From a virus: 32,114 nucleotides of DNA. Below are positions 7,385 through 25,490 of this stretch, piece by piece; the first letter of the stretch is position 1; the number at the start of each line of letters is the position of its first letter. Made by a program: the position numbers and the translations under genes. The notes under the pieces are model-generated. The model was not told the DNA's origin. It was given only the letters and a program-made list of their open reading frames with translations, and made no database searches. The DNA is taken from positions 1-32,114 of the IMG/VR virus record IMGVR_UViG_3300033182_000084; one strand, given 5' to 3'.

Positions 7385-7663
7385 TCATTCGGTCAAATCA
7401 AGGAACATCCTTTCAATATTAGCGCATTCGATCTCTCGGTTGCGCCATTCTGCCCAAGTTTTAGCTGGCTTACGCCCCGCACGCTCCCACTGCGCCGCGT
7501 GGCACGCCTCGTGTAGGATAACGTTCGGTTTATTCATGTCCGGCGCAAGGTAAATCACCGGGATATCGCCAGCGAGAAAAAAGGTCGCGTTGCTGGGCGT
7601 GATAACCGTGGTATCTGGATAGTGCAAATTAAATAATGCTAGGAACGCAATAATCTCAGTCAT
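7385..7663 (-). CDS. Small HExxH metallopeptidase-like protein
   Basis: 92 residues. HEACH at 51-55 is the zinc-binding HExxH motif, preceded by the hydrophobic VIL and followed by AAQWERAG; E77, E79 and E84 in the helix NREIECANIE are candidates for the third ligand as in gluzincins. Before it lies a beta hairpin (GDIPVIYLAPDMN), the usual edge strand of such folds. It is very short, so essentially a minimal catalytic core. ATG at 7663 has GGGAGG five bases upstream. It is divergent from the small HTH ORF at 7746. This resembles the pairing of ImmA-type peptidases with repressors, but the peptidase is too diverged for me to call it ImmA. Confidence 0.63.
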   Translation of the reverse strand: MTEIIAFLALFNLHYPDTTVITPSNATFFLAGDIPVIYLAPDMNKPNVILHEACHAAQWERAGRKPAKTWAEWRNREIECANIERMFLDLTE

Positions 7664-7687
7664 GTCGCCTCCCGTTGTTGAAGGTTG

Positions 7688-7716
7688 AGTATAATTCTTT
7701 TTTGCACTAACATTAA
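7688..7716. promoter_or_regulatory. Possible divergent promoter region
   Basis: Between the leftward metallopeptidase and the rightward HTH ORF there is a perfect TATAAT on the plus strand (7690-7695) that overlaps TATACT on the minus strand (7688-7693). Neither has a good -35: TTAATG at 7711-7716 on the minus strand is 17 bases away but matches only half, and no -35 is visible on the plus side. A run of nine A (7714-7722) lies alongside. These are probably the early divergent promoters, possibly activator-dependent. Confidence 0.38.
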
Positions 7717-7745
7717 AAAAAAACGCTTTTTAACAGGAGAAAACA

Positions 7746-7934
7746 AAGGAAGTAAAAGAAATCAAAAACTTGCTGTCTGACCGCAATCCCCGAGAGGTGA
7801 GCCGACGCACTGGCATCAGCTACTCAACGTTACGAAACATTACATCTAGCAAAGATCCTGATCCGTCTATCAAGACCGTGAATAAGCTTCGGGAGTATTT
7901 TTCAACGACTTGCCCGAGGCTGACTCATGGCTAA
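7746..7934 (+). CDS. Small Cro-like HTH regulator lacking a canonical start codon
   Basis: An open frame of 62 codons ending TAA at 7932. NPREVSRRTGISYSTLRNIT is a clear Cro/CI-type helix-turn-helix, followed by the usual PSIKTVNKLREYF helix. A strong AGGAG (7735-7739) is followed at the ideal six-base spacing by AAG (7746-7748) where ATG would be expected. ATC at 7761 could start behind AAGGAAG, and TTG at 7770 would give a 54-residue protein but is badly spaced. The frame overlaps the primase ATG (7927) by eight bases, a normal operon junction. It probably regulates the divergent early promoters, perhaps through the palindrome at 7188. It is either a rare-start gene, a mutated gene or a sequence error. 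Confidence 0.6.
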   Translation, partial: KEVKEIKNLLSDRNPREVSRRTGISYSTLRNITSSKDPDPSIKTVNKLREYFSTTCPRLTHG

Positions 7935-9663
7935 CATCACCGAGATTTGGAAGGACAAAAAACCTGTAGATCCGCCGGATATACAGTTACGAAACGCGAT
8001 TGAGGAGGCCGGGTTAGATGCGCCAGCAGAAATTATTTTCGATGGAAGAATTCACCGATTTAATTCAGGTAGCAGTGGAAGATCAAATAGTACAGATAAG
8101 AGCGGTTGGTATATTGCTTTTGGTGATGGCATTTGCGCTGGGAAGTTCGGTGATTGGCGTTGGGGCGTTGAACACAAATGGATACAAAATATCGGTCGTC
8201 GACTCACGCAGAACGAAGAGATTGAGTTTGCGCGACGGATGGAGGCCGCAAAGAAGGCGCGAGAGGAATCAGAGTCGGTAATGCGTGATAACGTCTCCGA
8301 GATCGTTGATAAGATCTGGAACGAGGCGGCACACGCAACCGAGGATCATCCCTACCTAGTCAAGAAGCAAATTAAGCCTCATGGCGCCCGAGTCACTGGG
8401 GATGGGCGACTGATCGTCCCACTCTACAATGACGACGGCGAGATGACGACCGTGCAGTACATCGACGCTAACGGTGGCAAGCTGTATCACACTGGCGGAA
8501 AGACTGGCGGATCGTACTGGCGCATTGGCGCGGATGACGATAACACGAGAGTCTATCTTGCTGAGGGATACGCAACCGCCGCCACAATCGCTGAGACGAC
8601 GTCTAAGGCGTGTTACGTTGCTTACTCGGCGTCTAACATTCCGACGGTCGTAGGACAGCTTAGAGAGCGCTATGGGCCGTCTACGCGCATCATTATCGTT
8701 GCTGATAACGATAGATCGGGAGTTGGCAAGAATCACGCCGATCAGGCCAGTGCGAAGTATGGCGCGACTGTCATCGTGCCGCCGATCGAAGGCATGGACG
8801 CTAACGACTATCTACTCGCCGGGAACGATCTATCAGCACTGCTGGAGCCAGCGACTCAGGAATACGACTGGCTGGAGCATGGTAAAGACTTCAGGTCGAC
8901 TCCGACTCCTATTAGCTGGTATATAAAGAATTGGATTCAGTCTAAATCCTTGGCAATGGTGCATGGGCCTTCAGGATCGGGAAAGACGTTTTTAGTGCTG
9001 GACTGGTGTCTGCATCTGTCGGCGGTCGGTCTTGAGAATCGAGACTGGTGCGGTAACCGGACAAAGCATCTGCCAGTCGTGTATCTGGCTGGTGAGGGAC
9101 ATCACGGACTCAAGGGCCGAGTCGCGGCTTGGATGCAACACCACGACGTAGATGACATCGACTTTTGGATGAGCAAGACAGGAACGGATCTAAACGAGCC
9201 AGAGGGCCTACTGAAGGTCATAGAGAACGTCAGGGCGCTTCCAGTGACGCCAAAGGTAATCGTTGTAGACACACTGCACCGATTCCTTAACGGCGACGAG
9301 AACAGCGCTCAGGACGCCAAGACGATGCTGGACTCGTGCGCCGTACTAATGAATGAGTTTGACTGCACTGTCATGCTTGTGCATCACACTGGCGTGTCTG
9401 AAGAAGCGCAGCATCGAGCCAGAGGATCATCGGCGTGGCGAGGTGCATTGGATATCGAGATCAGCGTTAAGCCATCAAAGGGATCAAGTCCAATCGAAAT
9501 TGTGCAGCGCAAAATGAAAGATGCTGAGATGAAAGACAGTCTGTTTTTTGAGCTGCGTAAGGTAGACATTGCTGGCTGGCGTGATGAGGACGGCGAGCAA
9601 GTACACTCTGTCGTGCTCGAATCCGCATCAGCGCCAGCCAAGGTCAGCAAGAAGCTTTCGTGA
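7927..9663 (+). CDS. Toprim primase fused to RepA-type hexameric helicase
   Basis: 578 residues to the first stop. Residues 30-90 resemble the N-terminal region of phage/plasmid primases. The Toprim fold shows AEGYATA (E213) and VADNDRSG (D260, D262). The AAA_25/RepA-like helicase has Walker A GPSGSGKT (347-354), Walker B VIVVDT (444-449), the HH pair (486-487) and RGSSAWRGALD (499-509). It should prime and unwind phage DNA, and the iteron-rich putative origin lies just downstream. GAGG sits seven bases before the ATG. The TGA at 9661-9663 is followed in the same frame by 95 sense codons encoding what looks like the usual C-terminal domain (see 9664-9951), so the protein is either truncated, read through, or split. 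Confidence 0.92.
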   Translation: MANITEIWKDKKPVDPPDIQLRNAIEEAGLDAPAEIIFDGRIHRFNSGSSGRSNSTDKSGWYIAFGDGICAGKFGDWRWGVEHKWIQNIGRRLTQNEEIEFARRMEAAKKAREESESVMRDNVSEIVDKIWNEAAHATEDHPYLVKKQIKPHGARVTGDGRLIVPLYNDDGEMTTVQYIDANGGKLYHTGGKTGGSYWRIGADDDNTRVYLAEGYATAATIAETTSKACYVAYSASNIPTVVGQLRERYGPSTRIIIVADNDRSGVGKNHADQASAKYGATVIVPPIEGMDANDYLLAGNDLSALLEPATQEYDWLEHGKDFRSTPTPISWYIKNWIQSKSLAMVHGPSGSGKTFLVLDWCLHLSAVGLENRDWCGNRTKHLPVVYLAGEGHHGLKGRVAAWMQHHDVDDIDFWMSKTGTDLNEPEGLLKVIENVRALPVTPKVIVVDTLHRFLNGDENSAQDAKTMLDSCAVLMNEFDCTVMLVHHTGVSEEAQHRARGSSAWRGALDIEISVKPSKGSSPIEIVQRKMKDAEMKDSLFFELRKVDIAGWRDEDGEQVHSVVLESASAPAKVSKKLS

Positions 9664-9951
9664 GTTGAGGAAAGTCGTAAGCGATTTGAGAGGGCTTGGC
9701 ACTTCACCAACAGGAACTATGATGGAGGTAAGCCGTTCGTTGAAAAGTCTGGGATGCTCGACTTCTTGACTTCGAGCGCGATGGGAATGTCAGAAAGCGC
9801 GGCTCGAAAGGCGTGTCAAAATGATCCATCACGCATGATTGGGATACTGATTGATGCGAAATATATTGCACCTAAAGGGCGCGGATGGGTCGCTTTGGAC
9901 GAGTCTTTGATCATGGATTTGAAGTCTCAGTGTGACAATTTGGGACAATAG
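9664..9951 (+). pseudogene. In-frame C-terminal domain of the primase-helicase, cut off by TGA
   Basis: Exactly in frame with the primase-helicase after its TGA, 95 sense codons run to TAG at 9949. The translation starts EESRKRFERAWHFTNRNYDG and continues with PFVEKSGMLDFL, GMSESAARKAC, RMIGILIDAKYIAP and GWVALDES, the pattern of the winged-helix-like C-terminal domain I associate with phage RepA-type primase-helicases. The first ATG (9754) is 30 codons inside this pattern and no ribosome-binding site precedes the frame start. Independent translation would thus give a clipped 65-residue protein. Most likely a nonsense mutation or sequence error; readthrough cannot be excluded. Confidence 0.6.
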
Positions 9952-9970
9952 AATAAAATCAATGACTTAC

Positions 9971-10025
9971 GACGTTTTTGGGACAATGGGACATTTGGGA
10001 CAAAAAGTAATTGTCCCAAAACGTC
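9971..10025. repeat. Long inverted repeat inside iteron group 1
   Basis: GACGTTTTTGGGACAAT (9971-9987) is the reverse complement of ATTGTCCCAAAACGTC (10010-10025) except for one extra T. The 22-base interval holds two more GGGACA copies. It could form a hairpin or be a symmetric protein-binding array in the origin. Confidence 0.75.
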
Positions 10026-10063
10026 AAAATAAAAATGATTTAAATCAATTACTTATGAAAAAT
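10026..10063. other. AT-rich stretch, possible DNA unwinding element
   Basis: Between the two iteron groups only a handful of G or C occur in about 38 bases, and the perfect palindrome GATTTAAATC (10037-10046) sits inside. This composition and placement fit an unwinding element of an iteron origin. The call is by position and composition only. Confidence 0.4.
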
Positions 10064-10114
10064 AGGACAAAGTTTGGGACAAAGCCGGGGACAAATATTT
10101 TTTGGGACAGGACA

Positions 10115-10138
10115 GGACAACACACTATAGTGTTGTCC
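10115..10138. repeat. Dyad inside iteron group 2
   Basis: GGACAACAC (10115-10123) and GTGTTGTCC (10130-10138) form a perfect 9-bp stem around ACTATA. A second, offset palindrome (ACACTATAGTGT) overlaps it. Both arms carry an iteron core in opposite orientation. No T run follows, so it is not a terminator. Confidence 0.72.
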
Positions 10139-10190
10139 AATTGTCCCATTTGTCCTGACCTGAATGTTTTGTCTTGAAGTAGAATATCGC

Positions 10191-10199
10191 TGTGGATAA
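10191..10199 (-). promoter_or_regulatory. Perfect DnaA box
   Basis: TTATCCACA on the minus strand, identical to the strict consensus for host DnaA binding, 35 bases past the last iteron. A single copy could be chance, but its place beside the iterons makes a role in host-assisted initiation plausible. It overlaps the in-frame GTG at 10192 that could be mistaken for the terminase start. Confidence 0.6.
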
Positions 10200-10212
10200 C
10201 TTGGAGCGAGAA

Positions 10213-10623
10213 ATGGACGAAGTAAAGAAGCTTGGAAGGCCGACTGATTACACTGATGAGTTGGTGGATCGAATCTGCGAGGAAATCGCGGCTGGTCGAT
10301 CGTTGAATAAGATTTGCGCTGAAGAAGATTGGAGTCCTGATAAGTCTACGTTCTATCGTTGGATGTATCGTCATCCAACCATTCGCGACAAGTACGCGCG
10401 AGCGAAGAACGCGCAGCAAGAATTTGCGGCTGAGGACATCTTGGAGATCGCATACGACGCGACGCCCGAGACCTACAACGTGGCTCGATTAAAAGTCGAC
10501 GCGCACAAGTGGATTGCCTCAAAGCTTTTGCCTAAGCGCTACGGTGAGAAACAACAACTTGAACACACTGGCGAGTCCGGTGGGCCGCTGGTCATCAAAT
10601 GGAAGGGATCAAATGAGGATTAA
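10213..10623 (+). CDS. terS: Terminase small subunit
   Basis: 136 residues. LGRPTDYTDELVDRICEEIA, RSLNKICAEEDWSPDKSTFY with WMYRHP, and NVARLKVDAHKWIASKLLPK are typical of Sf6/P22-like small terminase subunits: an N-terminal HTH DNA-binding domain and a helical oligomerisation part, which recognise phage DNA for packaging. The ATG at 10213 is chosen because GGAG lies exactly six bases upstream. The in-frame GTG at 10192 has no good site and lies in the DnaA box. The gene directly precedes the large subunit, apart from a tiny overlapping membrane ORF. Confidence 0.88.
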   Translation: MDEVKKLGRPTDYTDELVDRICEEIAAGRSLNKICAEEDWSPDKSTFYRWMYRHPTIRDKYARAKNAQQEFAAEDILEIAYDATPETYNVARLKVDAHKWIASKLLPKRYGEKQQLEHTGESGGPLVIKWKGSNED

Positions 10624-10711
10624 GTTCGACTGGTTTATCTTCGCGTTAGTTGCTGGGCTGGTGTTTACGGTGTTCGGTATGCTTGCCGACTTTTTAGGAT
10701 TCTATGCCTGA
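10613..10711 (+). CDS. 32-residue single-span membrane peptide between TerS and TerL
   Basis: ATG at 10613 with AAGG six bases upstream, overlapping the end of TerS by eleven bases and the start of TerL by eight. The peptide is basic at the start (MRIKFDW), then almost entirely hydrophobic (FIFALVAGLVFTVFGMLADF). The good ribosome-binding site and tight overlaps on both sides argue that it is translated. The role could be holin-like or membrane-associated, or it could be only a coupling ORF; the sequence does not decide. Confidence 0.55.
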   Translation: MRIKFDWFIFALVAGLVFTVFGMLADFLGFYA

Positions 10712-11966
10712 GATTACGATTCCGTACACGCCCCGGGAGGTCATGCTCCCGTTTCACAATAGAACTGAAAGATTTGCTTGTTTGGTGGCTCATCGTCGTT
10801 GCGGCAAGACTGTCGCGGCGATCAATGACCTGATCCGCGATGCGCTGACGATACAGCGCGATAACGTGCGCGTTGCGTACATCTCGCCGACCTATCGGCA
10901 GTCCAAGGCGGTGGCGTGGGACTACTGCAAGGAATTCACGCGGTCGATCCCGGGGATCAAAGTTAATGAGTCGGAACTGCGGATCGACTTTCCGAACGGC
11001 GCTCGAATACGACTGTTTGGCGCTGAGACCGCCGACTCAATGCGAGGTCTGTACTTTGACTCGGTGGTGCTAGACGAGCCAGCCGACTTCCCGGCGAACG
11101 CATGGTCGACAGTCATTCGACCAGCGATCGCTGACCGTCAGGGTAAGGCGACGTTCATCGGGACGCCAAAAGGTAAGAACGAGTTTTGGGAGATATTCGA
11201 CGCCGCTCGTAATGATCGGTCATGGTTTACCGCGATGCATAAGGTCAGCGAGACCAAGTTGTTGCCGCAGGAAGAACTCGATGCGGCGATAAAGACAATG
11301 GGCGAGGATCGGTACGAGCAAGAATTTGAGTGCAGTTTTGAGGCCGCGATTGCTGGCGCTTACTACGGCACGGAAATGAAGGAAGCAACAAATACTGGAC
11401 GGATATGTAATGTTCCGTATGATCGGGCCGTAGGTGTCGTTACAAGTTGGGATTTAGGTATAGGCGATTCAACTTCGATATGGTTTGCACAGTATGTCGG
11501 GCAGGAAGTTAGGTTGATCGACTATTACGAAAGCAGTGGCGTTGGTCTCGATCATTACGCCAAAGTGTTGCAAGAAAAAGGTTACGTTTATGAGTCGCAC
11601 ATATTGCCGCACGACGTTCAGGTTAAAGAACTCAGTACGGGACATTCGCGCCTCGAAACATTGGACAACTTAGGGATAAGGCCAGTGGAGATAGCGCCAA
11701 AGCTTAATCTTGACGACGGCATACAGGCAGTGCGATCCATGTTGGATCGATGTTGGTTTGATGAGACCAAGTGCAATCGAGGGATCGAGGCATTGAGACA
11801 GTATCAGCGCGACTTTGACGAGAAGGGCAGAACGTGGCGAGGTAGACCGAGGCACGACTGGACATCGCACGGCGCTGATGCAATGAGATATTTGGCAGTT
11901 GGCTATCGACCACAGCAAACAAGTTGGGGCGAGCCGATTAGACGTAATCTGCGAGGGATAGCGTAG
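10704..11966 (+). CDS. terL: Terminase large subunit
   Basis: 420 residues. ATPase domain: Walker A variant HRRCGKT (30-36), Walker B VVLDEPAD (121-128, catalytic E125), coupling motif FIGTPKG (151-157). RNase H-like nuclease domain: D250 in SWDLG, D304 in LPHD and D392 in SHGADAMRYL. It pumps DNA into the procapsid and cuts concatemers, docking at the portal (gene at 30642). It is somewhat shorter than the usual 450-500 residues but all motifs are present. ATG at 10704 follows AGGA four bases away. Stop TAG overlaps the GTG start of the next gene. Confidence 0.95.
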   Translation: MPEITIPYTPREVMLPFHNRTERFACLVAHRRCGKTVAAINDLIRDALTIQRDNVRVAYISPTYRQSKAVAWDYCKEFTRSIPGIKVNESELRIDFPNGARIRLFGAETADSMRGLYFDSVVLDEPADFPANAWSTVIRPAIADRQGKATFIGTPKGKNEFWEIFDAARNDRSWFTAMHKVSETKLLPQEELDAAIKTMGEDRYEQEFECSFEAAIAGAYYGTEMKEATNTGRICNVPYDRAVGVVTSWDLGIGDSTSIWFAQYVGQEVRLIDYYESSGVGLDHYAKVLQEKGYVYESHILPHDVQVKELSTGHSRLETLDNLGIRPVEIAPKLNLDDGIQAVRSMLDRCWFDETKCNRGIEALRQYQRDFDEKGRTWRGRPRHDWTSHGADAMRYLAVGYRPQQTSWGEPIRRNLRGIA

Positions 11967-25112: not shown

Positions 25113-25490
25113 ATGAGTGGCGGTGGTGGAAAAGGCGGAAGACAAACAACACAGGTACAGATTCCACAGTATCTGCAAGATGCGTCTAGGCGCAATATTG
25201 CTCGTGCTGAACAGGTGCAACGGTTAGGATTCATGCCATATACAGGCCCACAGGTCGCGGCATTTAATCCAACTCAACAGGCGGCGATGCAGTCAAATAT
25301 TGGCGCGGCAGAGGCTTTTGGCCTTGTTCAGCCCGGTTCATTGCAGGCGATGCAAGGAATGCCGACGCCACAAACATTTGCTGGTGGCGTACAAGGATAT
25401 TCATCAATTCCGTTATACGATCAGGCTCTGGCTGAGTTACAGCAACGCAATCCGAGCCAAGTTAATGCGTATAACAGACTATTTGTTTAA
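25113..25490 (+). CDS. Internal virion protein, N-terminal half of a usually fused protein
   Basis: 125 residues. Glycine-rich start (MSGGGGKGGRQTTQVQIPQY), helix LQDASRRNIARAEQV, then YTGPQVAAFNPTQQAAMQSN and YDQALAELQQRNPSQVNAYN. In phages I recall, this sequence runs on into the kind of protein encoded next, as one polypeptide of about 400 residues. Here it ends at TAA 25488 and the next gene starts in another frame eleven bases on. The head-on arrangement may be an old gene split. Confidence 0.68.
   Translation: MSGGGGKGGRQTTQVQIPQYLQDASRRNIARAEQVQRLGFMPYTGPQVAAFNPTQQAAMQSNIGAAEAFGLVQPGSLQAMQGMPTPQTFAGGVQGYSSIPLYDQALAELQQRNPSQVNAYNRLFV

Follow-up and report, generated by a model that had tools for sequence, protein, structure and literature searches.

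An isolated in-frame stop in a phage primase-helicase gene and the putative origin-recognition domain beyond it

The window, by which we mean the whole stretch of 32,114 nucleotides of viral DNA analysed here (IMG/VR record IMGVR_UViG_3300033182_000084), carries an in-frame TGA at 9661-9663 (+) in the gene of a phage replication initiator, and our analysis leads us to regard this codon, with a probability of about 0.93, as an isolated nonsense change, be it real or a product of sequencing or assembly. Unremarkable as such, the stop brings to light a naturally occurring panel of phage initiators in which the helicase part is nearly constant and the probable origin-reading domain changes along with the adjacent repeats. 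The panel makes it testable which residues of the winged helix choose the iteron and how initiator and origin change jointly, and it raises the further question of why origin specificity keeps changing, conceivably through incompatibility, satellites or origin-directed nucleases as in PLE/ICP1.

The interrupted gene and its relatives

The primase-helicase frame runs from the ATG at 7927 to the TGA (ORF 7927-9663, +), and its product combines a Toprim_3 domain (residues 209-298) with an AAA_25/RepA-like helicase (residues 321-491), as assigned with Pfam and PHROGs. Both domains exceed the curated Pfam cut-offs (40.1 bits versus 27.2 for Toprim_3 and 120.7 versus 27 for AAA_25), and a profile search matches the helicase domain to the RSF1010-type RepA of PDB entry 1g8y with an E-value of 1.2e-05 over profile positions 319-497. 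No D5/SF3-type family appeared in the Pfam scan at E<=1, in which AAA_25 and other P-loop families were listed. The model of the full-length protein was poor (pTM 0.42) and was set aside.

Beyond the TGA the same frame stays open for 95 codons, up to the TAG at 9949-9951; its earliest in-frame ATG is codon 31, at position 9754, and no Shine-Dalgarno-like stretch is seen at a usable distance from this downstream frame (9664-9951). The ORF reading thereby confirms the original prediction with regard to the position of the stop, the 95 open codons that follow, the occurrence of the first ATG after 30 codons and the lack of a ribosome-binding site. An open run of this length would arise by chance with a probability of approximately 0.008 at the base composition of the gene, but the much stronger evidence for the coding status of this stretch is homology rather than run length: the encoded protein is 100% identical to that of the nearest contig (L001/L022, itself 95% identical over primase residues 1-578) and 91% identical to that of L002, and comparison with L022 reveals five synonymous and no non-synonymous codon differences. 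This absence of decay in the downstream domain would fit a recent change or an error, and it would also fit a domain that is still made by readthrough.

The part cut off by the stop (9664-9951, +) is predicted to be a C-terminal winged-helix domain on the basis of an alignment of 44 C-termini and of an AlphaFold2 model (pLDDT 88, pTM 0.75), in agreement with the winged-helix-type end that had been recognised in the original prediction. No Pfam or PHROGs family was found for this part, searching PDB sequences with a profile of the C-termini yielded no match, and the structural matches in the PDB are generic winged-helix repressors (best VIA-align Z 7.2, that is, below 8; best Foldseek E 0.018), for which reason the winged-helix assignment remains a prediction. 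The nearest structural relative among predicted viral proteins, and the single strong structural match in BFVD, is part of the Prim_Pol-domain protein A0A6J5RWR5 (E 4.9e-08, TM 0.91).

Relatives of the gene were drawn from IMG/VR and from four phage records, and were included if their tblastn identity reached 40% in the matched part and the gene was present through to its end. Eighty of the 230 IMG/VR relatives were examined, four of which (L085, L057, L047 and L100) were dropped because the ORF leaves the contig, so that 76 of them and the four phage records make up the 80 relatives counted here; 13 genome contigs with less than 36% identity were excluded from the counts as too distant. Alignment with these relatives, the check that had been proposed at the outset, finds all 80 uninterrupted at the junction between helicase and C-terminal part, where the position of the TGA is taken by Lys (60), Pro (9), Ala (3), Arg (2), Thr (2), Asn (2), Gly (1) or Glu (1). 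The two nearest relatives have an Arg codon that a single transition turns into a stop, and when IMG/VR was searched for a pattern in which the first base of the TGA could take either form, 15 stretches were returned, only two of which are this gene, both of them intact. The C-terminal part is fused to the body in all 80 relatives, and the separate downstream gene that would have counted against a severed domain was encountered in none. As far as is visible, the window alone has the stop, a distribution that speaks against programmed readthrough as well as a split gene.

A second lesion and the source of the stop

Not only the primase is affected, since the small HTH-like gene of 62 codons at 7746-7934 (+), which overlaps the start of the primase by 8 bases, begins in the window with AAG (7746-7748), whereas in relatives an ATG follows the same AGGAG, as it does in 12 of the 12 other close-clade loci where the AGGAG is readable (in seven further close-clade loci either the upstream stretch or the AGGAG was missing). 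The HTH-like gene shows, on the window branch, four non-synonymous changes (start codon, Y8N, L15P and G58R) and two synonymous ones, as compared to none and one, respectively, on the L022 branch, and the site of L15P is Leu in ten other close relatives with an upstream reading. A small 'transcriptional regulator' is annotated at the same place in Salicola phage CGphi29, Alteromonas phage XX1924 and Idiomarinaceae phage 1N2-2. Damage to two neighbouring replication genes is the mark of a defective genome or of sequence error.

When the 47 window genes were compared with four related contigs (L001 and G002-G004), 16 had no relative there; among the 31 that did, the primase alone has an internal stop with respect to all its relatives, and 29 other window genes are each free of an internal stop when set against at least one relative. 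Of the 94 substitutions on the window branch in the primase, 68 are at third codon positions, a bias indicating that errors do not pervade the contig. The ancestry of positions 7600-11000 is a patchwork, with 8000-8100 being 95% like L033, 9400-9600 being 94-95% like L024 and the rest mostly resembling L022; natural recombination is a possible source of these patches and so is chimeric assembly. Elsewhere in the window, the gene at 25113-25490 has 125 codons versus 178-226 in its relatives from three related contigs, and the shortfall at its end may reflect a deletion or represent a third lesion. A repeat of about 27 bases (TCGGTT...TAAGTAGCAACCGA), which precedes the small terminase gene in L001 (5676-5736) and L003 (7308-7362), is missing from the window.

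Four candidates had been put forward originally for the stop, among which nonsense mutation and sequencing error gain from the comparison with relatives (0 of 80 with a stop) while readthrough and a split subunit lose ground. Programmed or leaky UGA readthrough would give rise to two products, a long one that binds the origin and a short one lacking the domain, and it could draw on the intact downstream frame, on the full conservation of its protein and on a stop that falls, in the predicted model, in a linker just ahead of a separate domain; nonetheless, the stop is not conserved in any of the 80 relatives, the overlapping HTH gene is disabled too, and TGA is an ordinary stop that ends 12 of the 46 window genes. 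Moreover, no tRNA gene was found in the 32 kb of the window (which may be a fragment), no Rfam match in a search of the window and no conspicuous RNA structure after the stop (z -1.12 over 60 nt and -0.61 over 100 nt), all of which makes readthrough very improbable. A reassigned TGA was rejected in view of the same use of TGA as a stop and the same lack of tRNA genes, and a selenocysteine-like structure was tested and set aside. Even less credible is the separate translation of 9664-9951 as a subunit of its own, for instance from the ATG at 9754: an in-frame ATG does exist, but a start there would delete the first helix and the first strand of the predicted fold, a ribosome-binding site is not seen and the part is fused to the body throughout the relatives.

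Concerning the nature of the isolated nonsense change itself, we consider a real mutation somewhat more probable than not. A sequencing or assembly error, in which case 9661 would begin a sense codon and the HTH start be intact in the living phage, and a low-coverage or chimeric stretch would have produced both lesions as artefacts, is possible but strikes us as the less likely source. It derives its appeal from the fact that both disabling changes lie within 2 kb and none in the 29 other comparable genes, from the short patches of differing ancestry in the contig, and from L074, one other contig of 80, whose lone in-frame TGA at codon 148 of the primase ORF is the sole other internal stop among the relatives and illustrates that lone stops occur in the collection. 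Conversely, the changes in the primase on the window branch are distributed over codon positions in the manner of genuine evolution, and on balance we place a real replication-defective variant a little above local sequence error.

A plausible mechanism can be sketched. In intact relatives a single protein would unite a Toprim primase with a hexameric helicase of the RepA-like kind, and its C-terminal winged helix would bind the iterons directly behind its own gene and load the primase-helicase at the origin. The product of the window would keep primase and helicase and lose the origin-reading domain, being as it were an enzyme without an address, and the truncated protein would presumably be unable to start replication.

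The iteron array and its covariation with the C-terminal domain

Iteron initiators in general bind iterons and place the replication machinery at the origin. Next to the initiator gene the window has a series of short repeats, the arrangement of an iteron-type origin: repeats of the TTTGGGACAA type in both orientations extend over 9939-10155 (+), overlap the last codons of the gene and mark a probable replication origin. GGACAA occurs 11 times in 370 bases as compared to 3.3 times in shuffles, none of 200 of which reached as many copies. Within the array lies a perfect inverted repeat with arms of 9 bases and a spacer of 6 (10115-10138), as read from the sequence, and adjoining the array is TTATCCACA (10191-10199, -), which we take to be DnaA-box-like. 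In 67 of the 80 loci, counting the window, the commonest 6-mer in this neighbourhood is more frequent than in dinucleotide shuffles (p<=0.01), and in 13 of the 80 regions no repeat is significant at that threshold. The iteron core is GGACA in the clade of the window and GGATA in L024, L034 and L036, while farther relatives have GGTAA, GGAAC, GGTAC, GGTCA, GGTTC, GGTTA and others.

Defining the iteron class as the commonest GGNNN, by a rule that prefers GGA or GGT, allowed 55 of 59 non-redundant loci to be classed. For pairs with a body identity (first 578 residues) of 90% or more, the median identity of the C-termini is 0.94 across the 31 pairs with matching iterons and 0.56 across the 28 pairs with different ones, which corresponds to an AUC of 0.85; at lower body identities the AUC is 0.63 (75-90%), 0.85 (60-75%) and 0.65 (45-60%). 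Shuffling the iteron classes within clusters of similar bodies gives a p-value of 0.0002 in 5000 shuffles, although kinship is not fully removed by this procedure. Bodies that are 94-98% identical can be found paired with C-termini only 37-75% alike and with differing iterons, as in L034 versus L032 and L037 (bodies 95-97%, C-termini 38%; GGATA versus GGACA) or in L077 and L079 versus L080 (bodies 98%, C-termini 75%; GGTAA versus GGAAC).

A further case is a near-minimal pair, L059 and L066 versus L060 and L053, with bodies 96-97% and C-termini 97% identical and yet GGAAC versus GGTAA iterons: three residues differ (AKVYIKPSATG versus AKQYIKPSSPG), including a Val/Gln exchange in a helix, and the arrays comprise eight GGAAC and one GGTAA in the former as opposed to one GGAAC and six to seven GGTAA in the latter. 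The helix in question spans residues 44-50 of the domain (9793-9813, +, in the window), and across relatives the identity of its residue 49 (9808-9810) tracks the iteron class; among non-redundant loci it is Gln in 14 of 14 GGTAA loci, Val in 7 of 8 GGAAC loci, Lys in 11 of 12 GGACA loci and Lys or Arg in 3 of 3 GGATA loci. Departures from this pattern are L080 (Lys with GGAAC), L070 (Gln with GGTAC) and L088 (Thr with GGACA), and Asn occurs with five classes.

The tree of the bodies, a quick one with several long branches, requires no fewer than 21 changes of iteron class and 18 of residue 49, so that kinship alone does not easily explain the link. In a test of independent pairs on this tree, for Gln and GGTAA four to five of five agree and none is contrary (p 0.06-0.125, the pairs being too few for significance), and for Val and GGAAC three of three agree in nearly all pairings. 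The DNA past the array differs among L059, L060 and L061 and among L077, L079 and L080 despite their near-identical primase-helicase bodies, which suggests that the exchange may reach beyond the array.

We read the C-terminal part, from these comparisons of sequences, as a putative exchangeable origin-recognition module. The covariation between iterons and C-termini lends good support to the remark in the original prediction that the downstream part may govern DNA binding beside the origin. Going one step further, we lean slightly toward the view that the domain and its iterons form an exchangeable module with a partly readable residue-to-base code, that phages switch origin specificity either by swapping domain and array or by altering a few helix residues, and that the window represents a natural knock-out of this system.

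Relation to known initiators

The proposed module around the stop is a variant of an already known kind. In RepA of the PLE satellites of Vibrio cholerae, for which initiator-origin specificity has been established by experiment, the published account describes a DNA-binding domain that covaries with the iteron origin while the remainder is conserved, as well as module swapping on more than one occasion (PMC8263062), and both traits have their likeness here. The differences are that the variable domain of PLE RepA is N-terminal (RepA_N) whereas here it is a predicted C-terminal winged helix on a Toprim/RepA-like primase-helicase, that PLE is a satellite whose semi-palindromic repeats measure about 30 bases whereas here a phage has short GG-cored iterons, and that specificity is experimental for PLE RepA and inferred here (PMC8263062). 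In the literature searched, which consisted mostly of open-access abstracts, we found no earlier description of covariation between iterons and C-termini in this phage family.

The helicase domain resembles the RSF1010 RepA-type hexameric helicase (PDB 1g8y), but unlike the latter it shares its polypeptide with a Toprim primase and a predicted winged helix. The alpha protein of phage P4 likewise carries primase, helicase and a C-terminal winged-helix origin-binding domain in one polypeptide and works with iterons, an architecture matched here with a predicted winged helix; the helicase of P4 alpha is of the SF3 type, in contrast to the AAA_25/RepA-like helicase of the window. Closer at hand, Salicola phage CGphi29, Alteromonas phages XX1924/PB15 and Idiomarinaceae phage 1N2-2 encode members of the same primase-helicase family over nearly the whole length, and these, unlike the one in the window, are uninterrupted. 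XX1924, 1N2-2 and CGphi29 also have, as in the window, a small regulator gene before the primase-helicase and iterons after it, and the cores of those iterons are GGTTC, GGTAC and GGACA.
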